Origin: Catenulispora sp. EB89
GTDB taxonomy: Bacteria; Actinomycetota; Actinomycetes; Streptomycetales; Catenulisporaceae
Direction of reading: 5' to 3'
Length of the DNA: 64,000 bases
Assembly: GCF_041261445.1 (NCBI RefSeq)
Contig: NZ_JBGCCU010000001.1
Location: 310,001 to 374,000, forward strand
Under the pieces are notes generated by a model that made no database searches, had not been told where the DNA came from, and worked only from the letters and a program-made list of their open reading frames with translations. A program made the translations under genes and the position numbers. Of this stretch, positions 14,349-26,990 are shown in pieces. How positions within the stretch are numbered: the stretch's first letter is position 1; each line of letters begins with the position of its first letter.

Positions 14349-15005
14349 GTGAGCTCTGATCCGAAGGCGATCATCGAGTCCGGATACGACGCCATGGCCG
14401 AGGAGTACTTGTCCACGTTCGGCGAAGCCGTGCCCGACGACCCGAGGGTCCGCTTCGTCGGCGAACTGGCGAACCACCTCGCCGACGGCGCCCGCGTGCT
14501 CGAACTCGGATGCGGCGCCGGCGTGCTCGAACTCGGATGCGGCGCCGGCGTGCCCGCCACAGTCCTGCTGGCTCAACGTTTTGACGTACTCGGCGTGGAC
14601 ATCTCCGCCGGCCAGCTGGCGCTCGCCGCGCAGCGGGTGCCGCGCGCCGGCTTCCGGAAAGCCGACATGACACAACTGGAGCTGCCCGAGGCCTCGTTCG
14701 ACGCCGTCGCTGCCTTCTACAGCTTCAACCACGTCCCCCGCGCCGAGCAGCAGCCGCTGCTGGCCCGGATCGGCCGGTGGCTGCGGCCCGGCGGACTCCT
14801 GCTGGCCTCCTTCGGCCGCGGCGGCTCGGCCGACGACGTCGAGCCCTGGCTCGGCGTCCCCATGTTCTTCGCCAGCCACGACCCCGCGACGAACACCCGC
14901 CACCTCGCCGAGGCCGGCTTCGTCCCGCTGGTCGACGAGCTCGTGAGTACGGAGACGCCGCTGGGGCGCGAGACATGGCAGTGGGTGCTGGCGAAACTGC
15001 TCTGA
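14349..15005 (+). CDS. Class I SAM-dependent methyltransferase with duplicated motif I
   Basis: A 218-aa methyltransferase (Methyltransf_25/11 type). The motif I segment VLELGCGAG (near residue 50) is present twice in direct succession through an exact 27-bp tandem duplication, followed by VPATVLLAQRFDVLGVDIS (acidic end of beta2), KADMTQLELPEASFDAV (motif III region) and LRPGGLLLASFG. The duplication adds nine residues to the SAM-binding glycine loop and may disrupt or shift cofactor binding. GTG start, 11 bases after the DsbA-like gene, so probably in the same transcript as the sigma factor. The substrate is unknown. Confidence 0.85.
   Translation: MSSDPKAIIESGYDAMAEEYLSTFGEAVPDDPRVRFVGELANHLADGARVLELGCGAGVLELGCGAGVPATVLLAQRFDVLGVDISAGQLALAAQRVPRAGFRKADMTQLELPEASFDAVAAFYSFNHVPRAEQQPLLARIGRWLRPGGLLLASFGRGGSADDVEPWLGVPMFFASHDPATNTRHLAEAGFVPLVDELVSTETPLGRETWQWVLAKLL
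14494..14547 (+). repeat. Exact 27-bp tandem duplication inside the methyltransferase gene
   Basis: 14494-14520 and 14521-14547 are identical and in frame, each encoding VLELGCGAG. The perfect identity indicates a recent slip or duplication. Confidence 0.97.
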
Positions 15006-15049
15006 CCTGCGAGGCGCGACGTTGTTAGCGCAGCGCTTCCCGCGTTCAC

Positions 15050-15066
15050 GGTGATGGTTTCCCGGT
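15050..15066 (+). repeat. Left copy of a 17-bp direct repeat
   Basis: GGTGATGGTTTCCCGGT. The matching copy at 20042-20058 differs at one position. Flanking bases also align loosely (TTCCCG upstream in both). The copy sits at the 3' end of the LuxR-type gene. The pair brackets 15.05-20.06 kb. Confidence 0.6.
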
Positions 15067-16082
15067 CATAGCCAGCCGCGTTTGGCGGCCTTCATCCCGG
15101 CTTCGAAGCGTAATCCGGCGTCGAGGCGCTGCATGAGGTCGGCCATGATGCGGCGGACGGTGCGCAGGGAGATCCCGAGCTTCTTGGCTGCGGTCTCGTC
15201 GGTGGCGCCGTCGGCGAGCAGGTTGAGCAGGGTGCGTTCGGTGTCGGACAAGCCGGTATGGGCATCGACGGGCTTGCCGACGTCCAGCGGGGCTGCGTTG
15301 CGCCATACCGTCTCGAACAGCTCCAGCAGGCTGGCGATGACACCGGGCGCGGTGACGACGGCGGTGCCTCGGCCACGGACGGTCGGGTCCAGGGGAACGA
15401 CCGCGATCCGCCGGTCGGAGATGAACAGCCGCTGCGGGAGGGTCGGACTGGTTCGGACCTGGGCGCCGGCGGATGCCAGGTCGCGGGCGTAGTCGGCCAG
15501 GTGTGCATCGTTGCGGACAGCCTCCAGATACAGCGATCGTGCCGCCACGCCCCTGCGCAGCAGATCGGCATCCAGCGGCCAGGCGTCGGCGAGCATCCGC
15601 GCCGGCAGGGTGGTGGCCGGTACCAGGGAGTCGACGGTCGTAGTGGTGCGCAGGGCGATCTGCTCGAACCGGGCATGGATCGCGTCGGCGCCGATGACCT
15701 CCTCGATCTGGCTGGCCGGATCGCGGCCGTCGTCGTCCAGGCGCGCGGTGACAGTCCTGGCGATCTGATCGCGCTGGGCCTGGATGCGGCGTTGCTGCTC
15801 GGCAAGTTCGGCTTCCTGGAGGCGTAGCAGCTGGGCCAGAGCCGCCTCGGCGGTGATCGGTAGCAGCAGTTCGGGGTGCTGCTGGGAGGTGCGGACCAGG
15901 GCTCGGTCGGCCAGGGCGTCCAAGCGCTCACGGGCTTGCGACTCGTCGAGCCCCAGGATCTGGGCCAGGTCGGCCACGCCGGCGCCGGGGGCGGCGGCCA
16001 TGGCCGTCCACAGCTGTGCCAGCTGCTCCTCCAGGCCCAAGGTCAGCAAAGTGGACACCTCGATAGCTGCGCCTGCGGCCAT
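15066..16082 (-). CDS. TrmB/LuxR-type transcriptional regulator
   Basis: A 338-aa protein. The N-terminal winged-helix segment (residues about 15-70, LAQILGLDESQARERLDALADRALV) is TrmB-like. A coiled-coil stretch (about 82-112) and a PLD-like sensor region (about 130-265, including RRGVAARSLYLEAV and RLFISDRRIAVVPLDP) follow. The C-terminal LuxR HTH (about 275-325) contains LSDTERTLLNLLADGATDETAAKKLGISLRTVRRIMADLMQRL. Such regulators are common in streptomycetes. The gene is divergent from a small secreted peptide gene, and a strong 29-bp palindrome lies between them. It probably controls the peptide, the 124-aa protein and the NlpC gene. The ligand is unknown. Confidence 0.85.
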   Translation of the reverse strand: MAAGAAIEVSTLLTLGLEEQLAQLWTAMAAAPGAGVADLAQILGLDESQARERLDALADRALVRTSQQHPELLLPITAEAALAQLLRLQEAELAEQQRRIQAQRDQIARTVTARLDDDGRDPASQIEEVIGADAIHARFEQIALRTTTTVDSLVPATTLPARMLADAWPLDADLLRRGVAARSLYLEAVRNDAHLADYARDLASAGAQVRTSPTLPQRLFISDRRIAVVPLDPTVRGRGTAVVTAPGVIASLLELFETVWRNAAPLDVGKPVDAHTGLSDTERTLLNLLADGATDETAAKKLGISLRTVRRIMADLMQRLDAGLRFEAGMKAAKRGWL

Positions 16083-16255
16083 TGCCCACCCCCCTGGTGT
16101 GTTGTTCGCCCCGCACCGCAGTCACCGGCCGCGGGGCCCTGAGCAGAGATCAGCCCAGGCCGTCACCCCGGCCAGGAAGGGCACATAGCCGAATTCTCCT
16201 CGGCCGATCGGGCGGCGCTCCGTCCAGGTGCGCCGCGTCTGCCTGCACAGGGATT

Positions 16256-16284
16256 GGCACCAAGGTGCCACGCACCTTGGTGCC
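16256..16284. promoter_or_regulatory. Perfect 29-bp palindrome between divergent regulator and peptide genes
   Basis: GGCACCAAGGTGC (16256-16268) and its exact complement GCACCTTGGTGCC (16272-16284) are separated by CAC, and each arm holds an inner CACCNNGGTG symmetry. It lies 140 bases upstream of the peptide gene and 174 bases upstream of the regulator start. A LuxR-regulator operator is more likely than a terminator because both genes read away from it. The remainder of the 341-base gap shows no gene. Confidence 0.7.
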
Positions 16285-16423
16285 ACCGGCATTCCCTTCC
16301 AGTGCAGGTCAGGACTTGGAAGAGTTCTTCTTGCCAGCCCGGATCGCCACCGGAGGACGCATCGGACCGGAATCTCCGGCCCGAACACGATCACCGACTC
16401 CTGTGCCGATTGGGGATACCGCC

Positions 16424-16606
16424 ATGTCCAAAACCGCCCGCATCACCCGCCGCCTGCTGATCCCTGCCATTCTGGCCACCGCCTCGATCGCACCAGCCGT
16501 GCACACCGCACATGCCACGGCCACCGCAGCCGGGACCGGTGCCGTGGTACAGGCGGCAGCCGCAGTACACGCAGACGGAATGCCTTGCATGTCCTGCGGC
16601 GGCTGA
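16424..16606 (+). CDS. Small secreted peptide with C-terminal CxxC-GG
   Basis: A 60-aa product. A twin-basic start (MSKTARITRRLL), a hydrophobic core and an AHA-type cleavage site near residue 31 form a Sec signal peptide. The mature part is about 29 residues, Ala/Thr-rich, and ends GMPCMSCGG. The CxxC followed by terminal Gly-Gly suggests metal binding, a disulfide, or processing. The ATG at 16424 is preceded by GGGGA. It is divergent from the LuxR-type regulator and one base pair from the next gene. It is too short to assign to a known family. Candidates are a signalling peptide, a small metal-binding peptide or a modified peptide. Confidence 0.65.
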   Translation: MSKTARITRRLLIPAILATASIAPAVHTAHATATAAGTGAVVQAAAAVHADGMPCMSCGG

Positions 16607-16607
16607 C

Positions 16608-16982
16608 GTGGACATGGCCCTCCTCCGCCTGTGCCCAGGGCCTGATGCCCGAATCAGCACCCCGAGCCCTGAGATCGTCGCCGACATCCTGTGGGCCGCA
16701 GCGGTCCCCGCCGACGGTCTCGAACACATCCGCGCCCGGCACGGCCCGACCCCGACCGCCATCGACCTCGCACTGTTCCACATCGGATCCGAGGCCGAGA
16801 CGGTCGCCGACATCGCGCTGCGACTGTGCCGCCGCGCCATCGATGCCGCACCAGCGCTGGCCGGCTGGACCGCCACCCGGATCCCGCTTGGGACCCACTA
16901 CGACGCTGTGCAGACCGAGCAGGTCCCGCACTTGCGCGATTTCCTTCCGCAATTCGGTAACGACCACCACCGCAGTCGATAA
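16608..16982 (+). CDS. Unknown 124-aa protein following the CxxC peptide
   Basis: A cytosolic-looking protein of about 124 aa (GTG at 16608, or ATG at 16614). It begins one base after the peptide stop codon, so it is almost certainly co-translated with the peptide. It is mostly helical (PTAIDLALFHIGSEAETVADIALRLCRRAID) with two Cys and no catalytic motif recognised; the end is His-rich (NDHHRS). No signal peptide is seen. Because of its position it could assist maturation or immunity for the peptide, but that is inference only. It is followed 19 bases later by the NlpC/P60 gene. Confidence 0.6.
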   Translation: MDMALLRLCPGPDARISTPSPEIVADILWAAAVPADGLEHIRARHGPTPTAIDLALFHIGSEAETVADIALRLCRRAIDAAPALAGWTATRIPLGTHYDAVQTEQVPHLRDFLPQFGNDHHRSR

Positions 16983-17001
16983 CGAGAGAGTGAAATAGAT
17001 C

Positions 17002-19263
17002 ATGAAGAACATCCGGCGTCGGCTGTCCGCCTCGATAGCCGCCGGTTCGATGACCGCAGCGCTGAGCGTTACGCTTCTGGCCACATCGCCTGCGCATGCC
17101 GATGGTGCGGCAGCATGCGCCGATACATCCAGCAAGGGCGGTGTCATATCCCCTTGCATGATGATCGCCCGGGCATACAACTGGATTGCCGCAGGCGTTC
17201 CATACGACCAGGGCGGTTGGTATGCCAGCCCGTCCGGAGACGGCACCTACCGTGAGGACTGTGCCGGATTCGTGGCGATGGCCTGGCACATGAAGTGGAG
17301 CCCGCCAGTCACCTACGCTCCGCCCGGTCTGGACGACCCGTCCATCTCGAAGTACCTCGGTACCGTCAGCAGCCTGAAGAACGCCGGGAGCCTGGACACG
17401 ATCCAGCCCGGCGACGCGCTCGTCCTCACCGGCGAGCATGTGGTGCTGTTCGCCGGCTGGACCGACTCCTCGCATACGTCAGCGGTGATTGACTCTGAAT
17501 CCCATACGGGTGTTCCTACCTCACAGAGTGCAGGACTCTATGCCTGGAGCACCAAATACCTGATCGGCGAGGGCTACAAGGTCTATCGGTACAACAACGA
17601 CCAGCTCAGCAATCCCGCCAGCCCTCCGACCACCACTGTCGACAGTGCATCTGTCACCAATTCGGCGGTGACGCTAACCGGCACCGCGTCCCCTGGCGCA
17701 GACTACTTCTACTTCCACGTGCAGCAGAACGGTGTCGACAAGCTCTACTCTCCTGCAGTGGCTGGGACTCCGGGAACCCCGCACCACACCTGGAGTTTTG
17801 ACCCGAAGTCCCTGCCGAATGGCACCTACCAGGTGATCGCTTCGGCGAGCCTCAACGGGCAAATCGGTACGTCAGCCGGCTACAACATCACGATTAACAA
17901 CGCTCCCGCTGCGCCTCCCGCGCCTTCGGTATCGAGCCCATCCGGCATCGCCACAGGCGTTGTGGCGATGACCGCTTCTGCCCCGGGTGCAAACTCTGTT
18001 ACGTACAGTGTTGACGGAGCCGTCGTCGGAACGTCTACCTCGGGACCGGACTTCTCGCTGGAGTGGGACTCGGCGGCTGTGCCTAACGGATTGCATTCCA
18101 TCACCGCAACGGCTAGCAATGGCAGTGCCACTTCTCCGGTCTCTTCAACAGTCAAGACGGATGTAGAAGACTCTCGGCGTGATGTGGGCGTGATTACCCC
18201 CAGTGCATCTGACGCCACCTCGACCAAGGTCGGAGATGCCAACGGTCAGATGCACGTGTTCAGCCGCGGTGCCGACGGCCACCTGTACGACAGCTATGCA
18301 ATGCCGGGCGGCGCGTGGAACCTCTACGATCTGACTAAATATGGAGGTGCGCCGGCGATTTCGGGCGCTCCGGCTGCGGTGGTCGACTCGTCTGGTGTTC
18401 TGAACGTGTTCAGTCGTGGCGCGAACGGCCATCTTTACGACACCTACGCCGCTGCGGGAGCAGCGTGGAACGACTTCGACCTGACTGCTCAGGGCGGAGC
18501 TCCAACGATCGGGACGGATCCCGCGGTGACGGTGGACAGCTCCGGGACGATGAACGTGTTCACTCGTGGTGCGGACGGTCACCTGTACGACACCTACGCT
18601 CAGGCTGGCGCAGTGTGGAACGATTTCGACCTGACTGCTCAGGGCGGCGCCCCGACCATCACGAACAACCCTGCGGTGACGGTGGACAGCTCCGCGACGA
18701 TGAATGTGTTCACCCGTGGTGCGGACGGTCACCTGTACGACTCGTACGCCAAGGCCGGCGGGACCTGGAACGACTACGACCTCACAGCACAGGCCGGTGC
18801 TCCGACCATCACGAACAACCCTGCGGTGACGGTGGACACTTCGGGGACGATGAACGTGTTCACTCGTGGTGCGGACGGTCACCTGTATGACTCGTACGCC
18901 AAGTCCGGTGGGACCTGGAACGACTACGACCTGACTGCTCAGGCTGGCGCTCCGACCATCACGAACAATCCTGCGGTGACGGTGGACACTTCGGGGACGA
19001 TGAACGTGTTCGCCCGTGGCGCGGACGGTCACCTGTATGACTCGTACGCCAAGGCCGGTGGGACCTGGAATGACTACGACCTCACAGCACAGGCCGGCGC
19101 CCCGACGATCGTCAACGAGCCGTCCGTCACCGTTGACACCTCGGGGACGATGAATGTGTTCACCCGTGGTGCGGACGGTCACCTGTACGACTCGTACGCC
19201 AAGGCCGGCGGGACCTGGAACGACTACGACCTGACCTCCGGAGCGAGCGTTCCCGTCATGTAG
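17002..19263 (+). CDS. Secreted NlpC/P60 hydrolase with Ig-like and seven propeller-type repeats
   Basis: A 753-aa protein. A Sec signal peptide (residues 1-34, cleavage after AHA) is followed by an NlpC/P60-type domain (about 50-185) with the catalytic-type Cys in REDCAGFVAMAW and the His in GEHVVLFAGW. Two Ig-like segments (about 210-300 and 305-385) come next, then seven 50-residue repeats (412-753), each carrying NVF-RGADGHLYD-YA and W-N-Y/F-DLT, as in PLL/tachylectin-like carbohydrate-binding beta-propellers. It is probably a secreted peptidoglycan or peptide amidase with a glycan-binding C-terminus. It lies downstream of the peptide pair on the same strand and is closed by a strong hairpin. 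The repeats are nearly identical at DNA level. Confidence 0.85.
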   Translation: MKNIRRRLSASIAAGSMTAALSVTLLATSPAHADGAAACADTSSKGGVISPCMMIARAYNWIAAGVPYDQGGWYASPSGDGTYREDCAGFVAMAWHMKWSPPVTYAPPGLDDPSISKYLGTVSSLKNAGSLDTIQPGDALVLTGEHVVLFAGWTDSSHTSAVIDSESHTGVPTSQSAGLYAWSTKYLIGEGYKVYRYNNDQLSNPASPPTTTVDSASVTNSAVTLTGTASPGADYFYFHVQQNGVDKLYSPAVAGTPGTPHHTWSFDPKSLPNGTYQVIASASLNGQIGTSAGYNITINNAPAAPPAPSVSSPSGIATGVVAMTASAPGANSVTYSVDGAVVGTSTSGPDFSLEWDSAAVPNGLHSITATASNGSATSPVSSTVKTDVEDSRRDVGVITPSASDATSTKVGDANGQMHVFSRGADGHLYDSYAMPGGAWNLYDLTKYGGAPAISGAPAAVVDSSGVLNVFSRGANGHLYDTYAAAGAAWNDFDLTAQGGAPTIGTDPAVTVDSSGTMNVFTRGADGHLYDTYAQAGAVWNDFDLTAQGGAPTITNNPAVTVDSSATMNVFTRGADGHLYDSYAKAGGTWNDYDLTAQAGAPTITNNPAVTVDTSGTMNVFTRGADGHLYDSYAKSGGTWNDYDLTAQAGAPTITNNPAVTVDTSGTMNVFARGADGHLYDSYAKAGGTWNDYDLTAQAGAPTIVNEPSVTVDTSGTMNVFTRGADGHLYDSYAKAGGTWNDYDLTSGASVPVM
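18235..19263 (+). repeat. Seven in-frame 150-bp repeats
   Basis: Units start at 18235, 18385, 18535, 18685, 18835, 18985 and 19135. The last is cut short by the stop codon. Units 3 to 7 are almost identical, including silent positions, which indicates recent amplification or gene conversion; units 1 and 2 are more diverged. Confidence 0.95.
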
Positions 19264-19294
19264 CCAGATTCCAGTGGCCGTGACCACATAACTT

Positions 19295-19328
19295 CGCGTC
19301 CTGCGGCTCTCTGGAGCCGCAGGACGCG
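19295..19328 (+). terminator. Strong hairpin after the NlpC/P60 gene
   Basis: A perfect 15-bp stem (19295-19309 with 19314-19328) with a 4-nt loop lies 32 bases after the stop codon, followed by GCGTTTCGG. There is no long T tract, which is usual in GC-rich actinomycetes. Confidence 0.8.
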
Positions 19329-19438
19329 GCGTTTCGGTCGCGGCTCCTTCACAGCGTCCGGCTGCGAAGGTCTGCGATACACGAAGACCGTCGCCCGCGA
19401 CATCTCTGGCCGGGGTTCAGGTCAGCCGCCGCTACCCG

Positions 19439-19469
19439 CCCCTGGGTCGGCCAGGAGCCGACCCAGGGG
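19439..19469. other. Second perfect hairpin in the 19.26-19.50 kb gap
   Basis: A 13-bp perfect stem (19439-19451 with 19457-19469) with a 5-nt loop lies just upstream of the decayed DDE-type gene. It may be a terminator or a remnant of the lost left part of that element. Nothing else is seen in this gap. Confidence 0.55.
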
Positions 19470-19496
19470 AGCACGCGACCAGGGCACTGGCAGACG

Positions 19497-19781
19497 TTGT
19501 ACAGCGACCCAGCAGGTTTCCAGCTCCCCATCAAGGCACTCGGCTACAAAGCAGTGTTCGATTACCGCGTTGACCAGGTCGGCATCGCTGCCCAGGCGAT
19601 CCTGCTCGCCTTCCAACTCGCCCATGCCGACAAACGGAAGATTGTGGCCTGGGCCGACGCACTGCCCGACCCGCAGTCCGGCAGACCACGAAGACGTCCG
19701 GCACCGCGACGGGTCACAACCTTGAAAGCGTGGACGCCGACAGGCCGGATCCATCCGCCCGATGCGCTTCGAGCAGCCTGA
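19497..19781 (+). pseudogene. Deleted remnant of a DDE-type element gene
   Basis: The reading frame (about 94 aa) matches two separated parts of the 595-aa protein encoded at 24933-26720. Its first 30 residues (GFQLPIKALGYKAVFDYRVDQVGIAA) correspond to residues about 338-363 there, and from AILLAFQLAHADKRKI to WTPTGRI it corresponds to residues about 534-587. Some 170 residues are missing between them, removing the segment that holds the conserved Glu, and everything before residue about 333 is absent. Homology continues past the stop codon into a non-coding end with two hairpins, so a whole element tail was once present. The frame itself stays open but cannot encode an active protein. Confidence 0.8.
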
Positions 19782-19847
19782 CAAGCCGCTACTAACTCAT
19801 ATGAAGATCCGGGTGGTTTGAGGCAGCCTGCCCTGGCGAACAAGAAG

Positions 19848-19949
19848 CGGCCTGCCGCGTGGCCTTCTGGTGCTTCGGCAGGCCGTCGTTGCCACGTCCA
19901 GACAAAGCAAGAGACCCGGCTTGCAGCGACTTGCGTCACCACAACCGGG
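19848..19949 (+). repeat. Element end, copy B: paired hairpins
   Basis: Hairpin 1 is a 10-bp perfect stem (19848-19857 with 19876-19885). Hairpin 2 has CCCGG (19915-19919) with CCGGG (19945-19949) and a loop holding AGCGACTTGCGTCACC (19925-19940). The same order and a 15/16 match of the loop occur after the intact DDE-type gene at 26744-26882. The rest of 19782-20059 shows no gene. Confidence 0.65.
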
Positions 19950-20041
19950 CCACTTTAGGGGTTAACCACAAGTGGGGTACCGACGAAACTGTCTTGAGCT
20001 GGTCTCGCAGCTCGTGACTGGGGCTTGGTTCCCGGGCTAAG

Positions 20042-20058
20042 GGTGATCGTTTCCCGGT
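20042..20058 (+). repeat. Right copy of the 17-bp direct repeat
   Basis: GGTGATCGTTTCCCGGT, matching 15050-15066 at 16 of 17 positions in the same orientation. It is followed at once by a hairpin. Confidence 0.6.
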
Positions 20059-20059
20059 G

Positions 20060-20088
20060 TCTCGGGCCGGCTGGTGGCTGGCCCGAGA
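20060..20088 (-). terminator. Terminator hairpin downstream of the CWB2 gene
   Basis: A perfect 9-bp stem (20060-20068 with 20080-20088) lies 19 bases beyond the stop codon of the minus-strand CWB2 gene. Confidence 0.7.
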
Positions 20089-20106
20089 CTTGCTTGGGGC
20101 TGGACG

Positions 20107-22137
20107 TTAGAATTGTGCGGTGCCGTGGAGCAGTTTCACGATGGATGCTGCCAGGCTCGGCGTGATGATGCTGGTGCCGCCGAAGATGTCGGCGCGGATG
20201 TTGCCCGTGCGAGCACCGAGGACGGAGGCCGACTCGGTGGGGACTTTGCTGTTGATGCCGTCGACCAGAACGATCGGCCCATCGGACTCAGCCATGAACG
20301 TTCCACCGGTCAGAGCGTCGGGGTAGCCGGGGTTGGTGGCCGATGCAACGCCGTTGGCGATGCCGACCTGGGTGGTCGCGAACACGCCGGTGAACTGCCG
20401 CGCGACCAGTGCCGCGGTGTCGAACCGGTCCAGACCCGAGAACGACTTCGCCGCGGCTGGCCAGGCGTGACCGGCCTGGGCGCCGACGGTCGCCACGGTC
20501 TTGCCCTTCAGGAACGCCGCGGTGGCGGGGTCGAGGTTGGCACCGTCGGACAGGACGATCGCTGCCGGGGCGCCGGGGGCGACTGCGAACGGGCCAGCGG
20601 CGTAGGGGCCAGCCGCCAGGGCGTCGGCGAATCCGGCACCGGTGGCCAGCACTACGTGCTGGGGCGAGCCCATGCCGTCACGCGCCACCCGCAGCGCGGT
20701 GTCCGCGCGGTTGACTCCCTTGTACTGCGTCACCGCATAGCCCAAGGACTTGAGCTGGCTGACGATGGCGGGGTTCATCGCGCTGTCGCCACCGAGCACG
20801 TGGATGGCACCGCCGTGGGGCAGGACCCGCTGGATCTCAGCCAAGACCCGCGGATCGAGATGGGTGGCTGAGCCGTCAGTCAGCAGCAGCGGGCCGCCCT
20901 TCTTCGCGGCCAGCGGCCCGCCGGACAGCGCGTCGGGGTAATTCAGGCTGGTGGCGAGCACCACGGCCTTCGCCGATCCGCTGGCCGTCCAGCGCTGCTG
21001 AGAAATGGCGATCCCGGTGCCGATCCGATCGGAGCCGGCGTCACGATAGACCTTCGGTCCGGCGGAAGCCGGGGTTGGGACGGGGTTCGGTACGGGGGTG
21101 GGCGTCGGTGTCTGTGAAGTTGCGGTGGGCGGATTCAAAGGGGTTCCGGCTGGGAGGGGAACCCACCCGCCGATCCCCCTGGAGGCTCCGCTGGCAGGGA
21201 TTTGTGCGTCGGCGGAGTTGCCACCGGAACTAGAACCGACGGTTTGTCCCAGCGTGGCGCTATGGAAGAGCAGTTGGGACTCGTTTGGGGACCACTGCGG
21301 CTGGTTGTCGGCGAGACCGTTGACGGAGTTGTCGTAGACGGCAGTGGATTGCGCGATCCATTCCGGCGAACCGTCTGTGGGCCTGACAACGATCTGGCTG
21401 ACGTGCCCCGAGCCGCCCTGAAGGATGGCGAGGAACTTGCCATCAGGAGACAGTGACTCGCAACTGTCGAACCACTGGACTGGAACAGTTCGGGTGGCGT
21501 TGGTCGCGGGGTTGAAGATGGTGTAGGAACCTGGACCGTTGGTACCCCAGCCGATCTCTCCCGTCTGTTCGGCGACAGAGAACGGAAGTCCGGGGGCTTG
21601 CGTGAGCCGCTGCAGGCCGGTGCCGTCCGGGTGGATCCGGCTCAGGTACATGGTGCCTGTGTGCTGGTCCATGTCGTGGACGTAGAGCCAAGAACTGTCG
21701 GGGCTCCACTGATACCCGTCGAAGGTGACGGTGTCGCCGCTGCCCAGGGCTGGTACGGGAACGGCTGTCGCATTGGATCCGTCGCTGTCCGCAACGACCA
21801 GCACCTGGCCCTCCGGGTTGGAGGTGTTGCTCTCGAGGAATGACAGGTGCCTGCCATCAGGGGACACCTTGACCTGAGCGATCCGGCCGTAGGTGAGGAG
21901 CCCGGGTCCGCTCAGAGGGATGGCCTTCAATCCGGATCCATCTGGATTGGCGACAGCGATGCCATCCGTAACGTTCGTATTCGGGCTTGGGTTGTACGCG
22001 AAGACGACTTGGCCAGTCAGCAGTGGAGCGGCGGTTGGTGCTGCCGAAGCCGGGGACATGCCGGCGACGGACACGCCGCAGGCCAGAGTTCCCAGGATCG
22101 CGGTGCGGCTCGCTGTAGTCAGCCGTCGTGGACGCAT
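20107..22137 (-). CDS. Secreted TolB-like propeller protein with three CWB2 cell-wall-binding repeats
   Basis: A 676-aa protein. A Sec signal peptide (residues 1-33, AGMSPASAAP) is followed by WD40-like/PD40 beta-propeller repeats (about 40-310; SPDGRHLSFL, YQWSPDSSWLYV, LSPDGKFLAILQ, QWSPNESQLLF) and a Pro/Thr linker (about 335-362). Three CWB2 repeats follow (about 365-676), recognisable by R-G-x-R-x-TA starts (SDRIGTGIAIS, VNRADTALRVA, LDRFDTAALVA), NYPDALSGGPLA-type centres and a conserved GG near each end. CWB2 anchors proteins to wall glycopolymers, so this is a surface protein, possibly adhesive or binding. It has its own terminator and lies between the two mobile-element regions. Confidence 0.88.
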   Translation of the reverse strand: MRPRRLTTASRTAILGTLACGVSVAGMSPASAAPTAAPLLTGQVVFAYNPSPNTNVTDGIAVANPDGSGLKAIPLSGPGLLTYGRIAQVKVSPDGRHLSFLESNTSNPEGQVLVVADSDGSNATAVPVPALGSGDTVTFDGYQWSPDSSWLYVHDMDQHTGTMYLSRIHPDGTGLQRLTQAPGLPFSVAEQTGEIGWGTNGPGSYTIFNPATNATRTVPVQWFDSCESLSPDGKFLAILQGGSGHVSQIVVRPTDGSPEWIAQSTAVYDNSVNGLADNQPQWSPNESQLLFHSATLGQTVGSSSGGNSADAQIPASGASRGIGGWVPLPAGTPLNPPTATSQTPTPTPVPNPVPTPASAGPKVYRDAGSDRIGTGIAISQQRWTASGSAKAVVLATSLNYPDALSGGPLAAKKGGPLLLTDGSATHLDPRVLAEIQRVLPHGGAIHVLGGDSAMNPAIVSQLKSLGYAVTQYKGVNRADTALRVARDGMGSPQHVVLATGAGFADALAAGPYAAGPFAVAPGAPAAIVLSDGANLDPATAAFLKGKTVATVGAQAGHAWPAAAKSFSGLDRFDTAALVARQFTGVFATTQVGIANGVASATNPGYPDALTGGTFMAESDGPIVLVDGINSKVPTESASVLGARTGNIRADIFGGTSIITPSLAASIVKLLHGTAQF

Positions 22138-22322
22138 TCGTTTCTCCCCTTATGAAATGCGCGTTGTCGCTAGAGCGTGGCGACCCTACACCTGTTCGAA
22201 GGCTGATGAGTCATTAGGTCGCAGTGTTCTCACGAGACCTCCAGAGTGGGAGTCCGCATCTGTCGCAGCCAGACTCCACAGAGCCTGGCGGCCCCGCGTT
22301 TCGAATGCTGCCTTGAAACGGT

Positions 22323-22350
22323 GTGTCGGTAAACGAACGTTTGTCGACAC
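22323..22350. promoter_or_regulatory. 28-bp dyad upstream of the serine recombinase (res-like)
   Basis: GTGTCG (22323-22328) pairs with CGACAC (22345-22350), and AAACG (22331-22335) pairs with CGTTT (22338-22342) around a central AA. The length, and ends resembling TGTC...GACA, match crossover sites of resolvase-type serine recombinases. It lies 95 bases before the recombinase start. The 22138-22444 gap holds no gene otherwise and must contain the promoters of both divergent genes. Confidence 0.55.
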
Positions 22351-22444
22351 CGCGGCGTCTACGATGTCGCCGCAGGTCGCGAGTGTCGGCAACACGTGCC
22401 GCGAATCAACGTCGATGAACGGTCGGGCGGGTAGTTTTCGGCAC

Positions 22445-23032
22445 GTGCTCATCGGTTACGCGCGGGTCTCGACTCCAGATCAGAATCCGGTCCACCAGGC
22501 GGACGCCCTGCTGCGAGCCGGTGTGGCGCCGGAGAACATCCATTTGGATGTCGCGAGCGGTGCGAAGTCGTCGCGGCCGAAGCTGGATTTGGTTCTTCAG
22601 CTGCTGCGCGAAGGCGACACCTTGAAGGTCACCCGGCTGGATCGGTTGTCCCGATCGGTTCTGCACCTGATCACTCTCGGTGCGGAGCTGCGTGGGCGCG
22701 GTGTCGGGCTGCACGTGATCGAGCAGGGCATCGATACTGGGACGGCCGAGGGCCGCGCGATGTTCGGGATGCTGTCCGTCCTGGCCGAGCTGCAGCGCGA
22801 GCTGATCGTCGCCAACACCAACGATGGGCTGGCCGCCGCGCGGGCTCGCGGCCGCGTCGGGGGCCGGCGACCCCGGCTCACCCCCGACCAGGCCTCGGTT
22901 GTCCAGCAGCTCTACGACGCCCGGGAGAAGACCGTTCAGCAGATTGCAGACCTCTTCGGCGTTCCCCGCTCGACCGTATACGGCCACCTCGACCGCGCCA
23001 CGACTGTCCCACGGCAGCCAAAGGGCGTCTGA
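22445..23032 (+). CDS. Small serine recombinase (resolvase/invertase family)
   Basis: A protein of about 195 aa. The catalytic N-terminal domain shows IGYARVSTPDQNP (Ser nucleophile near residue 9) and the RLDRLSRS arginine motif (near 66). A long helix E segment (GRAMFGMLSVLAELQRELI) and a C-terminal resolvase HTH (TVQQIADLFGVPRSTVYGHL, about 160-180) follow. It should cut and rejoin DNA at short dyad sites, for cointegrate resolution or inversion. GTG at 22445 starts directly at the conserved core; ATG at 22415 adds ten residues. The 28-bp dyad upstream is a candidate site. It is the first gene of the recombination module. Confidence 0.9.
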   Translation: MLIGYARVSTPDQNPVHQADALLRAGVAPENIHLDVASGAKSSRPKLDLVLQLLREGDTLKVTRLDRLSRSVLHLITLGAELRGRGVGLHVIEQGIDTGTAEGRAMFGMLSVLAELQRELIVANTNDGLAAARARGRVGGRRPRLTPDQASVVQQLYDAREKTVQQIADLFGVPRSTVYGHLDRATTVPRQPKGV

Positions 23033-23131
23033 TCACACGACACGCCGTTGCTTAAACCATCAGATACTTGAGATATGCCTGACTGCCTCATAGCCTTTGC
23101 CCATATTTGGCATAGAGGGGCAATTATTAGC

Positions 23132-23719
23132 ATGAGTTCGACGGAGATGCTCAACGGCTTGCGGTTGACGCTGCGCGGGATCAGAGACGAGATCCAGCCG
23201 CTGGCGAACCGGGCTGGACAGTTGGAGACGGAGCTGGCTGGAGTGCGCGCTGAACTTGAGCCGCGCACGCAGCTGGCCGCGTGGCTGGAAACAGAGCTTG
23301 TTCGGCGACAGCAGGAGCAGGGCGATTCCAGCGTTGTCTCGACATCCTATTCGGTGAACGTCCATGCTGAACAACCCATTGACAGGGTGATGGGCGGGCA
23401 CGCCGGGCGGCTGCCGGTACCGCCCCAATCTGTTGGACTGCTTCGCGGGCCTTCGCGGCAACAGATCGCTGAGGAGTTGCTGACCACTGTCGCCAAGGAG
23501 CGCCCGATCGTGGCTCGGGACGTCGCCGAGCGCTACGGACTCGGAGTGGACCGTTCGCAGCGCGAGAGCGCTCGAGCCGTGCTGAACCGCTTGGTTGCCC
23601 AAGGCAAGGCGGTTCGCCTCGCCGATGGCTCGTTCATCCCGCCGGGGGCTCAGGATCGCGACTCTGTTCAGGGACAGCCGGCGGCCGCGTCGGCCGAGGA
23701 GGTCTGGGTGGCCGGATGA
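23132..23719 (+). CDS. Coiled-coil protein with C-terminal winged-helix-like region
   Basis: A 195-aa protein. Residues about 10-65 form a strong coiled coil (GIRDEIQPLANRAGQLETEL, AELEPRTQLAAWLETEL). A flexible middle is followed by a helical segment (about 125-180) resembling a winged helix: RQQIAEELLTTVAKERPIVARDVAERYG then ESARAVLNRLVAQGKAVRLADGSF. This arrangement suggests a dimeric DNA-binding accessory protein. ATG at 23132 is preceded by GAGGGG; an in-frame ATG at 23075 is less likely. It sits between the serine recombinase and the tyrosine-recombinase-like gene. The family is not recognised. Nothing is seen in the 296-base gap that follows. Confidence 0.6.
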   Translation: MSSTEMLNGLRLTLRGIRDEIQPLANRAGQLETELAGVRAELEPRTQLAAWLETELVRRQQEQGDSSVVSTSYSVNVHAEQPIDRVMGGHAGRLPVPPQSVGLLRGPSRQQIAEELLTTVAKERPIVARDVAERYGLGVDRSQRESARAVLNRLVAQGKAVRLADGSFIPPGAQDRDSVQGQPAAASAEEVWVAG

Positions 23720-24015
23720 GCACGAAGGCCGCCACCGAGTAGCACCTCGGCGGCGGCCGAAAAACGAGACCGTCCAACATTTCACAGGCCGACGGTGGCG
23801 TTCGTCCCGAGGATAGCCCGCACCGGCACCTCGGGCGGTGCGCCATGCCGTCTCCCCGGCATGTCCGCCCGCACGGGCGGCGGAAACAGCGAGAACCCAT
23901 GGTTGTCATCGCCATGCCACGGCGTCCCCATTCGCCGGACCGCGCCAACTTCACCGATCCCGTCGAGGCGTGCGACGCTGAAATCAAACCGGGAGTCCTG
24001 CGGTGGGGGGTGGTA

Positions 24016-24936
24016 ATGTCACAGTACGTTGACACCTATATCCCCCGTGGCTCGGACCCGACCTGGTGGCGGGTGGCCGCCGAGGTCCGGCGGATCGTGA
24101 AGCTGGCCAATCCGTCAAGCTCGAAGTCGGCGGCAGACCTGCTGGGCGCCCTGGCGCGTCTGGCCAGGTTCGCCGACTCGGAGGGCCGCGAAGGCACCGC
24201 CAAGGTGTGGCTGGCCGAAGAGATGATCGAGCGTTACATCGACGTCGGGTGCCCTGGCGTCAGCCCGGCGTCCAAGAGCAACTATCGCTCCCGGCTGCGG
24301 CGGCTGCGCACTGCTGTCTTCGGTCCGGACATCACCACCGGCGCTTCAACGCGGCTGCCGGGATCGGTCGCCTCCGTCCCCTACACCACCGCCGAGATGA
24401 CGGCGCTGTGGTCGTGGTCCGGGTCCCAACCAACTGTGGAGTTGCGGGCCGGCTGCCGCGTCTTGATGGCGTTGGGCCGTGGGGTGGGGCTGGACTCGCC
24501 CGAGGCGATTCCGCTGCGCCGCCACGATGTCGTCGTCGAGGGCACGCGAGACCCCGTCCTGGTGCGCGTGCGCGGTGACCGCGAACGTGTCGTCGTTTGC
24601 CGCAGGGCATGGGAGCAGGTACTACGCGATCTCGCCACAGCCGATGATGACCGCTCCCCGGTGTCCTACCTGTTCCGGCCCGAGTCGACCGCCAGGGCGA
24701 AGAATACGGTGACGAACTTCCTGGCCCGCACCAAGACCTCTGCCGCCGTGCCGCGGCTGTCGATGGGACGGCTGCGCGCGACCTGGCTTGTTGACCTCAT
24801 CGACAGCGGCGTCGCGCTACCCACCATCGTTGCCGCGGCCGGTGTCGACTCACTGCACGCGCTGTCGCGGCTGATGCCGTACGTCGCTCCGGTCGACGCC
24901 GACACCGCGGCGGCGGCACTTCGGGGTGAGCGGTGA
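24016..24936 (+). CDS. Divergent tyrosine-recombinase-like protein
   Basis: A 306-aa protein. The N-terminal helical segment (residues about 5-105) resembles a core-binding domain. The remainder resembles a phage-integrase catalytic fold: LMALGRGVGLDSPEAIPLRRHDV corresponds to the Arg-I region (G-R-G-x-x-L...E...L-R-x-D), and MGRLRATWLVDLIDSGVALPTIVAAAGVDSLHALSRLMPYV corresponds to the R-x-x-x-T ... Tyr C-terminus (Arg in RLRATW, Tyr in PYV). The box II His-x-x-Arg is replaced (GRLR), so activity is uncertain. ATG at 24016 follows GGGGGG by about five bases. Its stop overlaps the next start (GTGA), so the two are translationally coupled. Confidence 0.7.
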   Translation: MSQYVDTYIPRGSDPTWWRVAAEVRRIVKLANPSSSKSAADLLGALARLARFADSEGREGTAKVWLAEEMIERYIDVGCPGVSPASKSNYRSRLRRLRTAVFGPDITTGASTRLPGSVASVPYTTAEMTALWSWSGSQPTVELRAGCRVLMALGRGVGLDSPEAIPLRRHDVVVEGTRDPVLVRVRGDRERVVVCRRAWEQVLRDLATADDDRSPVSYLFRPESTARAKNTVTNFLARTKTSAAVPRLSMGRLRATWLVDLIDSGVALPTIVAAAGVDSLHALSRLMPYVAPVDADTAAAALRGER

Positions 24937-26720
24937 CGACTCCGGAAAGCGGACGTCACCTGCTACTGGAGAAGATGCGCTCCGAACGCCCCGTCCTGGC
25001 GATTAGCGACCTCGCGGTCAAAGCCGCGCTGAACGAGATCGCCGCCACCGGTGTCCTGCCGATCCTTGAGCAGATCACCATCGCCCATCTCGGCCGCAGG
25101 CGACTGCTCACCGTCGAGGGGCTGTGGACGGGGATGCTGCTGTGTTCTGCCGAGAATCGCGGTCAGGTGCGGTTCGACAAGGTCACCGACATCCTGCACC
25201 AACGGATCGGGGCCGCTTGGCGGGCCCGGTTCGGCATCCCCGATCGGCCAGATGACGACCGAGGCTTCGAAGCCGGATACGCCGTCGTCCGACGACTCCT
25301 GCACAAGATCCTCAAAGCACTCGATCCGTCCCCGCTGCCGAAGAACCTTCGTCTGCCGAAGGAACAGGCCGCCCAGCTGCTCGCCGACGTCGACGAACAC
25401 GAGGCCGAGCGACGACGATCGCTGCTGCGCACCCTGTCCAACAGCGTGCTCGAAGGATCCGTCATCCGCGTCAGGGATCTTCTCGCCCAGCACTGGGACG
25501 GCTCGGTCTCGGTCGACGGCACCGCAGTGGCCACTTTCGCCAAAGGGCTGCGCTCCACCGGGCTCGAACTGGCCACCGATCCCGACGCCGGCTGGTACGT
25601 CCGCGACGGCGACCACCGCGACGACGAAGGCGCTCTGGACAACCTGATGCGCCCGGACCGCAAACCTGAGTCGAAGGACGCCCCGGGACGCCGGAAACGC
25701 CGCAGGAAGAAATACGTGTTCGGCTACGAGGCAACGCTCGTTGTCGCCCGCGACACCGACCCGAGCCGGCAGAGCTCCGTGTTCCGGCCGCCAGCCCTGG
25801 TTCTGGCCCTGACTATGGACCGGCCGGGCCGTGAGCCAGGCAAGCGAGCCACCGAAGCCCTCGCCGATGCCTTCCTCCGGCGCGGCTACACCCGCGGCGG
25901 CTACATCGGGCCCGACCGTGCATACAACAACAGCGACCCAGGCGACTTCCAACTCCCTGTCCGCGCCATGGGGCTGAGGCCGGTATTCGACTACCGCCTC
26001 GACCAGCTCGGTATCGCCGCTGGCGTCCACGGTGCCATCCAGATCGAGGGCACCTGGTACTCCCCGGCCATGCCCCAACCGCTGATCGACGCCACTGCCG
26101 ACCTGCTCGCCGGACGCATCGACAAGGCCACCTGGAAGCGCCGTATCAAAGCCCGCGCACCCTACGCACTCGTCCCCAAAGAACACCCTGATCAAGAGGG
26201 GTTTCAACGGTTTCTGTGTCCGGCCGCCGCCGGCAAGCTGCAATGCCCGATCAAACCCGCCAGCCTCAGACGCGGTCACAGCATCCCACTGGCCGACCCC
26301 GAGCCCTCACCCGTCGGCCTGCCGAAGATCTGCGCCCAGGCCTCGATCACCATCGCGCCCGAGCTCGGCGCGAAGCACGCCCAGAGCCTGCCCTACGGCT
26401 CCGATGAGTGGGTCCGCATCTACTTCACCCTGCGCAACAGCATCGAATCCTTCAACGGCTACGCCAAGGACGACAACTACGAAGCGATCGAACGCGGAGG
26501 TCGCCGGCGGATCCGCGGCATGGCCGCACAAATGCTGCTCCTGGCCTTCCAACTCCACCACGCCAACACCCGCAAGATCGATGCCTGGCTCGACACCCTG
26601 CCCGCCGGCTCCGCGAGCCGTCCCCGGCGCCGCCCGCCGCGGCGCCGGGAGAACAGGCCGCTGAGCAACTGGACGCCAACGGGCTACATGAACGACGAAG
26701 ATCTACCCCAGGCCGCCTGA
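24933..26720 (+). CDS. DDE-type transposase-like protein coupled to the recombinase-like gene
   Basis: A 595-aa protein with an RNase H-like pattern: SVDGTAVATF (first Asp near residue 192), IGPDRAYNNS (second Asp near 328) and LRNSIESFNGYAKDD (Glu near 508), the spacing and local context of IS4/IS1182-like DDE transposases. The second Asp is followed by FQLPVRAMGLRPVFDYR. An N-terminal helical region (1-170) could bind DNA, and the C-terminus is Arg/Pro-rich. GTG start inside the end of the recombinase-like gene (GTGA). A decayed second copy lies at 19497-19781. Both copies are followed by the same pair of hairpins. No terminal inverted repeat typical of insertion sequences was found around it. 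Confidence 0.7.
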   Translation: MTTPESGRHLLLEKMRSERPVLAISDLAVKAALNEIAATGVLPILEQITIAHLGRRRLLTVEGLWTGMLLCSAENRGQVRFDKVTDILHQRIGAAWRARFGIPDRPDDDRGFEAGYAVVRRLLHKILKALDPSPLPKNLRLPKEQAAQLLADVDEHEAERRRSLLRTLSNSVLEGSVIRVRDLLAQHWDGSVSVDGTAVATFAKGLRSTGLELATDPDAGWYVRDGDHRDDEGALDNLMRPDRKPESKDAPGRRKRRRKKYVFGYEATLVVARDTDPSRQSSVFRPPALVLALTMDRPGREPGKRATEALADAFLRRGYTRGGYIGPDRAYNNSDPGDFQLPVRAMGLRPVFDYRLDQLGIAAGVHGAIQIEGTWYSPAMPQPLIDATADLLAGRIDKATWKRRIKARAPYALVPKEHPDQEGFQRFLCPAAAGKLQCPIKPASLRRGHSIPLADPEPSPVGLPKICAQASITIAPELGAKHAQSLPYGSDEWVRIYFTLRNSIESFNGYAKDDNYEAIERGGRRRIRGMAAQMLLLAFQLHHANTRKIDAWLDTLPAGSASRPRRRPPRRRENRPLSNWTPTGYMNDEDLPQAA

Positions 26721-26743
26721 ACAAGGCTGAAAATCATCTGAAT

Positions 26744-26882
26744 CAAGGCCGCGTGAGCTGGCTTCTGCCCTCACCGCGGCCTTGTCAGCTGCCGCCACGC
26801 CGACGAACGTGCCCAGAGGGCCCTAATCGGGCCCAGAAACGCGATCAAGCCCGGTTCCTAGCGACTTTCGTCACCGGAACCG
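26744..26882 (+). repeat. Element end, copy A: paired hairpins
   Basis: Hairpin 1 has a 10-bp stem (26744-26753 with 26775-26784) extended by TGAG/CTCA past one bulge. Hairpin 2 has CGGTTCC (26852-26858) with GGAACCG (26876-26882) and a 17-nt loop holding AGCGACTTTCGTCACC. Copy B is at 19848-19949. Hairpin 1 could act as a terminator; the conserved loop of hairpin 2 suggests a recognised end. Confidence 0.65.
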
Positions 26883-26906
26883 AGCCCTTTCGCCGGTACC
26901 TGCAAG

Positions 26907-26990
26907 TGCGCGAGGGGGGAGTTGAACCCCCACGCCCTTTCGGGCACACGGACCTGAACCGTGCGCGTCTGCCTATTCCGCCACTCGCGC
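26907..26990 (-). tRNA. tRNA-Leu (anticodon CAG)
   Basis: Read on the minus strand. Acceptor stem GCGCGAG pairs with CTCGCGC. The anticodon stem-loop CACGG-TTCAGGT-CCGTG gives CAG (reads CUG). A long class II variable arm (GCCC-GAAA-GGGC) and T arm GGGGG-TTCAACT-CCCCC complete it. CCA is not encoded. Its 3' end faces the recombination module, 25 bases from hairpin 2. A tRNA-Leu next to fhaA is also seen in mycobacteria, so the gene is probably ancestral here. Confidence 0.95.

Follow-up and report, generated by a model that had tools for sequence, protein, structure and literature searches.

What brings genes for several kinds of recombination enzyme together in one run, and do their products act as a unit? 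We addressed this question for a stretch of 64,000 nucleotides from Catenulispora sp. EB89 (hereafter the window, to whose coordinates all positions refer), in which four co-directional open reading frames lie at 22448-23032, 23132-23719, 24016-24936 and 24933-26720. They had been read, correctly, as an unusual recombination module that is neither a classical insertion sequence nor a Tn3 unit. We propose that they occupy the right-hand portion of a self-mobile DDE transposon. It homes to the 3' ends of tRNA genes, probably with a catalytically dead tyrosine recombinase (YR) as its target selector. Homing and the loss of catalysis can be read from the sequences, and the selector role we infer.

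Ends, extent and target site

The original prediction started the module at 22323 and found no flanking inverted repeats. However, terminal inverted repeats (TIRs) are present; the left one lies 2.3 kb outside that interval, and the element begins at 19975 and carries a cargo gene. The features of the ends and of the target are as follows.

19975..26903, + strand: whole transposon, 6,929 bp, delimited by TIRs, a flanking 5-bp duplication and same-genus empty sites
19976..19988, + strand: left TIR GGTACCGACGAAA, one of just two matches in the window
26888..26900, - strand: right TIR GGTACCGGCGAAA, a motif also at the right ends of aligned relatives
19970..19974, + strand: left target duplication AAGTG, equal to the right copy
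26904..26908, + strand: right target duplication AAGTG, covering C72 and A73 of the tRNA-Leu plus 3 nt; native CACAAGTGCGCGAGG in empty sites
26907..26990, - strand: target tRNA-Leu(CAG), found by ARAGORN and Rfam
26848..26888, - strand: terminator-like hairpin of the right end, in place of the tRNA's own terminator (fold z = -4.9; native counterpart in empty sites)
20029..20055, + strand: left subterminal TTCCC/TTTCCC motif pair, about 21 bp apart, conserved in aligned left ends

The right ends of the elements have in common a TTTCGTCGGT-like sequence whose reverse complement is found at a single place on the left, 19976-19988. When the whole 64-kb window was scanned with the 13-bp consensus GGTACCG[A/G]CGAAA (GGTACCGRCGAAA), allowing at most one mismatch, exactly two sites were found, inverted and at the two ends (0.11 expected); a general repeat finder had missed this repeat, buried among longer chance repeats. 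For elements with a native left flank, the outer 5-mers are equal on both sides (TTGTG in L060, ATGTG in L061, TGGTG in L167 and TTGTG in L182; L-numbers label compared loci from other genomes). The duplicated bases are target-derived, because L060 and L061 have identical right-end sequences and different duplications, each matching its own left flank. Together with the TIRs and a conserved DDE triad, these host-derived duplications indicate DDE strand transfer.

Elements of 6.9 (window), 6.8, 8.1, 11.7, 15.0, 22.4 and 23.2 kb were delimited, and the spread in size is due to cargo. Several genomes (L158, L054 and L193) contain head-to-tail arrays in which the right end of one element touches the left end of the next. 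The subterminal TTCCC/TTTCCC pair is a candidate binding site for the transposase or an accessory protein.

Insertion at the tRNA-Leu 3' end is the key fact that was absent from the original prediction. Synteny with same-genus genomes runs up to 14993 and resumes at about 26868-26905. Comparing empty with filled sites in related genomes, as had been suggested, helped to define the ends: in the empty sites of L109, L111 and L112 a native terminator hairpin directly follows the tRNA, and the Streptomyces empty sites that were inspected show a hairpin a few bases past it. The insertion point thus falls between tRNA-Leu(CAG) and the terminator present in empty sites, and the tRNA is restored because the duplication spans C72, A73 and three further bases. 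The predicted structured non-coding end was borne out, with the tRNA plus right end folding 4.9 standard deviations below shuffled sequences (a figure that includes the tRNA itself). The element's hairpin would end the tRNA transcripts in place of the native one.

A search of genome contigs with a single protein returned nothing, and a query with an alignment, independent of the whole-genome searches described below, returned 56 named loci, in Streptomyces, Actinospica, Actinomadura, Planomonospora, Thermomonospora, Actinocorallia, Streptacidiphilus and Wenjunlia. The 33 loci with a full-length transposase are the base for the counts of tRNAs and of YR neighbours. An intact, convergent tRNA-Leu (CAG; GAG in two) lies 129-235 bp past the transposase gene in 30 of the 33; in the frame-broken L187 and L197 the distance was measured from the end of the match and is about 180-200 bp. 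As for the other three, L158 is followed by the next array element, L181 by a broken tRNA-Leu, and in L162 no tRNA was seen. More distant relatives sit, in the same orientation, at tRNA-Ala(CGC), tRNA-Met, tRNA-Ser(GGA), tRNA-Leu(GAG) and tRNA-Leu(TAA). As judged from the sequences, insertion is at one fixed position and in one orientation, and the tRNA is kept intact.

The tree of the YR-like proteins implies at least four target switches; the near-family Leu(GAG) elements form one clade and the tRNA-Ala elements another. Because the transposase and the YR-like protein travel together, these switches do not tell which of them reads the target. No tRNA-like stretch longer than 9 nt was found in the element, and guidance by simple base pairing of an RNA therefore has no support. 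Three loci with distant YR-like/DDE-like pairs (L078, L079 and L081) have no tRNA nearby.

Three core proteins

Three of the four genes, listed here, make up the core of the element.

24016..24936, + strand: inactive tyrosine-recombinase-fold protein, 306 aa (by AlphaFold2/Foldseek; catalytic residues lost; start set from relatives)
24933..26720, + strand: DDE transposase, 595 aa (invariant D195, D328, E505, Y497, R501 and K512; Tn5 the top fold match, weak)
23132..23719, + strand: coiled-coil/winged-helix accessory protein (translation may begin further upstream, at 23075)

Whole-genome searches found relatives of the 595-aa protein across Actinomycetota, at 44-52% identity for full-length proteins and near 25% for distant ones. 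It had been asked whether the 306-aa protein is always the upstream neighbour, and a YR-like gene lies directly upstream in all 33 full-length relatives. At the loci examined from the whole-genome searches, it holds that place for nearly all full-length near relatives and for many of the distant ones. The two genes overlap by the predicted GTGA at 24933-24936, and the proposal that they form one unit is upheld.

The tyrosine-recombinase fold suggested for the 306-aa protein was confirmed by structure prediction. Its AlphaFold2 model (predicted local distance difference test, pLDDT, 80.7) matched 43 PDB chains at E <= 0.001 in Foldseek, and all 50 matches among those listed are tyrosine recombinases, including Cre, XerH, XerA, Tn1549 Int, IntI and HP1 Int. 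The frame is open from 23845, and the confidence of the model is very low for most of the residues ahead of 24016. Neither the Pfam models nor the NCBIfam models above cut-off matched the window's protein, and phmmer of this and the 595-aa protein against the PDB gave no usable match. When the YR-like set was compared, profile against profile, with four genuine YRs from the same genome, the two aligned in the expected register but without significance (E 0.083), so the fold assignment rests on the structure model.

The catalytic residues were counted in 29 aligned YR-like proteins. The first arginine is never found (Asp in 26/29), nor is the His-II histidine (Gly in 23/29, Ser or Thr otherwise), whereas Arg-II is kept in 28/29. 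The third His/Trp column is Gly in 29/29 and holds neither His nor Trp; the nucleophile column holds Arg in 28/29 and no Tyr. At the nearby position 346 there are 13 Tyr, 8 Phe and 8 His. The protein is thus a dead tyrosine-recombinase fold that has lost its catalytic machinery, and since the nucleophile is missing it cannot perform strand transfer. The original prediction of three recombinase chemistries is revised accordingly: the predicted catalytic proteins are the DDE transposase and, in this lineage, a serine resolvase. At four loci (L173, L200, L078 and L080) two YR-like genes lie in tandem upstream of the transposase. In L157, L168, L175, L182 and others the YR gene is preceded, at a distance of 20-70 nt, by a conserved dyad, GCTATT-N2-AATAGC, which is not evident in the window; it is perhaps the operator of the YR-DDE operon.

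These counts bear on a conventional explanation, in which the YR-like protein would serve as integrase for an island that inserts at tRNA genes, with the 595-aa protein as an accessory. Attachment at tRNA 3' ends is classic for YRs, and actinomycete integrative and conjugative elements (AICE/ICE) use these ends as do the elements studied here; in the same genus a tyrosine-integrase island (L113, 7190 and 17531) occupies the same tRNA-Leu and duplicates its 3' end. Such islands, however, combine an active tyrosine or serine integrase with a duplicated tRNA 3' end, and both are absent here: Arg-II is the sole catalytic residue left, and the tRNA 3' end has no copy within the element. The 5-bp host-derived duplications, the TIRs and the conserved DDE triad also speak against an island, which we regard as highly improbable.

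The DDE assignment of the 595-aa protein is supported as well. The six residues listed above are invariant in 27/27 relatives, the set used for transposase conservation, and nearly so in the distant set. In the AlphaFold2 model (pLDDT 78.6) the secondary structure reads as an RNase H-like order of strands, interrupted by an insertion ahead of the last catalytic helix; a helical N-terminal region of roughly 190 residues precedes the catalytic domain. Tn5 transposase is its top Foldseek match (E 0.025, probability 0.91, template modelling (TM) score 0.26). PF01609 (DDE_Tnp_1) matches 4 of the 27 relatives (best E 2.9e-4); the window protein is not among them, and it had no match to Pfam models or to NCBIfam models above cut-off.

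The third core protein combines a coiled coil with a probable winged helix. It shows weak AbiEi/EutK_C winged-helix similarity; its weak AbiEi match was the only one in PADLOC, and a PHROGs search matched nothing. A homologue was found upstream of the YR gene in 17 elements at first pass and in 24 of 27 after profile iteration.

Conservation of this kind also bears on the possibility that unrelated genes gathered by chance in a tRNA insertion hotspot. The site is indeed a hotspot, with older remnants at 14994-19969. However, the unit has defined ends, and three of the four genes keep their order across actinomycete genera. The idea that the four genes might occur independently elsewhere is therefore contradicted for the three core genes and holds in part for the resolvase, which is missing from most relatives. 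As an account of the whole unit, chance accumulation is hardly credible.

The target reader and known systems

A fixed target means that some reader is needed. The dead YR is the strongest candidate: its fold binds DNA sequence-specifically, every relative retains it, and there is a precedent in TnsF of Tn6022, an inactive YR whose role as target selector has been proven (Faure et al. 2023, PMC10293859). We propose that the DDE protein would cut the transposon ends and join them to the target, and that the dead YR would bind the acceptor/T-arm end of the tRNA gene (as DNA) and bring the transposase there, like TnsF. The coiled-coil/winged-helix protein may assemble the complex or regulate the operon.

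In an alternative account the transposon is the same, and the target is read by the N-terminal region of the DDE protein or by the coiled-coil/winged-helix protein, while the dead YR has another task, either binding at the transposon ends or repression of the operon. The transposase does have its helical N-terminal region, the winged-helix protein is nearly always present, and in many relatives the dyad lies ahead of the YR gene. Moreover, the eukaryotic Dada DDE transposons target tRNA genes, and the abstract on them mentions no YR partner (PMC3706591). Set against this are the strict retention of a complete YR fold, with both its domains, and TnsF as a precedent for a target role (PMC10293859), and we consider it unlikely, though a serious contender, that another protein is the reader.

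Several observations weigh against a homing transposon with a dead YR as its selector. The data do not single out the YR-like protein over the DDE or winged-helix protein as the reader of the tRNA gene. Right ends without a tRNA occur in the full-length copy L162 and in L057, and the two TIRs differ by 2 nt in their distance from the duplication. The YR catalytic columns were placed by motif and from an alignment to XerA (E 0.12) rather than from superposed coordinates, and one distant YR-like protein (L080_1) has Arg at Arg-I and no His-II. Lastly, the resemblance of the transposase to Tn5 is weak.

Among known systems the closest precedent for a dead YR that selects the target is Tn6022 itself, a Tn7-like, site-specific DDE transposon with an inactivated YR-fold selector and a target duplication, as here (PMC10293859). 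Tn6022 differs in using TnsA, TnsB, TnsC and TniQ, none of which is seen among the core genes here, and in targeting comM instead of tRNA 3' ends; in its TnsF part of the CAT domain is missing and zinc fingers are present at the N-terminus, whereas here both YR domains are present and a zinc-finger domain was not recognised (PMC10293859). Pfam and NCBIfam gave no TnsB, TnsC or TniQ match in genes 22448-26720, and the remaining gene of the element is a CW_binding_2 cargo. Tsy elements likewise place a YR-fold selector beside a small helix-turn-helix protein, but they move by active tyrosine recombinases and their inverted repeats are undetected, in contrast to the DDE protein, TIRs and 5-bp duplication described here (PMC10293859). 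The Tsy combination of a catalytically active YRec and TnsF is not seen, as the catalytic residues are absent. A protein selector also takes tRNA-homing Tn7-like elements and CAST I-D to tRNA-Leu genes; there TnsD reads the tRNA and insertion occurs 30-33 nt downstream, whereas here it is at the tRNA 3' end itself and TnsC/TnsD were not seen (PMC10293859). Dada elements insert in tRNA-Leu, tRNA-Ala and other small RNA genes of eukaryotes; they are distantly similar to IS256 with 6-7 bp duplications, against 5 bp here, and a YR partner is not among the features named in the abstract (PMC3706591).

The transposase itself resembles IS4/Tn5 in its predicted RNase H-like fold, its D-D-E residues and the insertion between the second D and the E. 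The IS4 signature is Y-x2-R-x3-E-x6-K, and that of the present family is Y-x3-R-x3-E-x6-K, a Y-R spacing of 3 instead of 2. The three-gene core, the cargo of up to about 20 kb, the fixed target and the want of a Pfam/NCBIfam match for the window protein are further differences from IS4/Tn5. The Tn3 family, in which a resolvase and res accompany a TnpA of about 1000 aa, shares the presence of a resolvase; the transposase here has 595 aa and matches no Tn3 model.

Every known family compared either departs from the elements in a tested feature or gives no clear verdict, and we therefore treat them as an unnamed family that operates in the manner of a Tn7-type homing transposon. With rather less assurance, we lean towards an undescribed prokaryotic superfamily in which an independently inactivated YR directly recruits an IS4-like DDE transposase to tRNA 3' ends without an AAA+ adaptor, and in which the tRNA target has switched several times. 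A literature search with thin subscription coverage found no description of a YR-fold/DDE tRNA-homing family. Bacterial site-specific DDE transposition is known mainly from Tn7-like elements. If the superfamily exists, it would be a second, simpler solution, with three genes, no recognised ATPase and a target that is fixed, safe and conserved; it would also be the second case in which a dead YR has been co-opted to select the target. The handing of the target to the transposase would become testable, the selector could be swapped to retarget insertion, and actinomycetes would gain a compact insertion tool.

Relatives are also found on Streptomyces plasmids (L225, 4985-7800; L226, 3502-6230), where they adjoin a small transcriptional-regulator gene on the opposite strand. 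Viral contigs and phages, when searched, held no relatives. Both core proteins of the plasmid relatives inspected are annotated just as hypothetical, so the family has probably been overlooked in other genomes too.

Resolvase, cargo and older insertions

The other features of the element and of its left neighbourhood are given below.

22448..23032, + strand: serine resolvase, 194 aa (PF00239, Pfam Resolvase, E 1.8e-38)
22323..22350, no strand: imperfect dyad GTGTCGGTAAACGAACGTTTGTCGACAC, a candidate res site, read by eye in the sequence
20107..22137, - strand: cargo, a secreted 676-aa protein with CW_binding_2 repeats (PF04122, E 4.6e-36)
14994..19969, + strand: older decayed insertion(s) with a transposase remnant at 19497-19781, the right end abutting the new element; synteny with relatives stops at 14993

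The resolvase call of the original prediction is confirmed, and of the four proteins this is the only one recognised by Pfam. Since, at the loci compared, this gene was matched only in the window and in two Actinospica elements, it is a lineage-specific add-on. The dyad may be its res site, and a CGAACG(A/T)TT core also lies upstream of the resolvase in L158 and L163. In this lineage the resolvase could then act at a res site near 22323 to resolve cointegrates, which would mean copy-out transposition.

The older copy in the window abuts the new element in the same array fashion as in L158, L054 and L193. Its transposase fragments (19497-19781) are 55-67% identical, and the 14994-19969 layer is absent from this position in the compared same-genus genomes. 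Also in this layer are a decayed right end, a LuxR-type regulator and a secreted protein of 753 aa with repeats.

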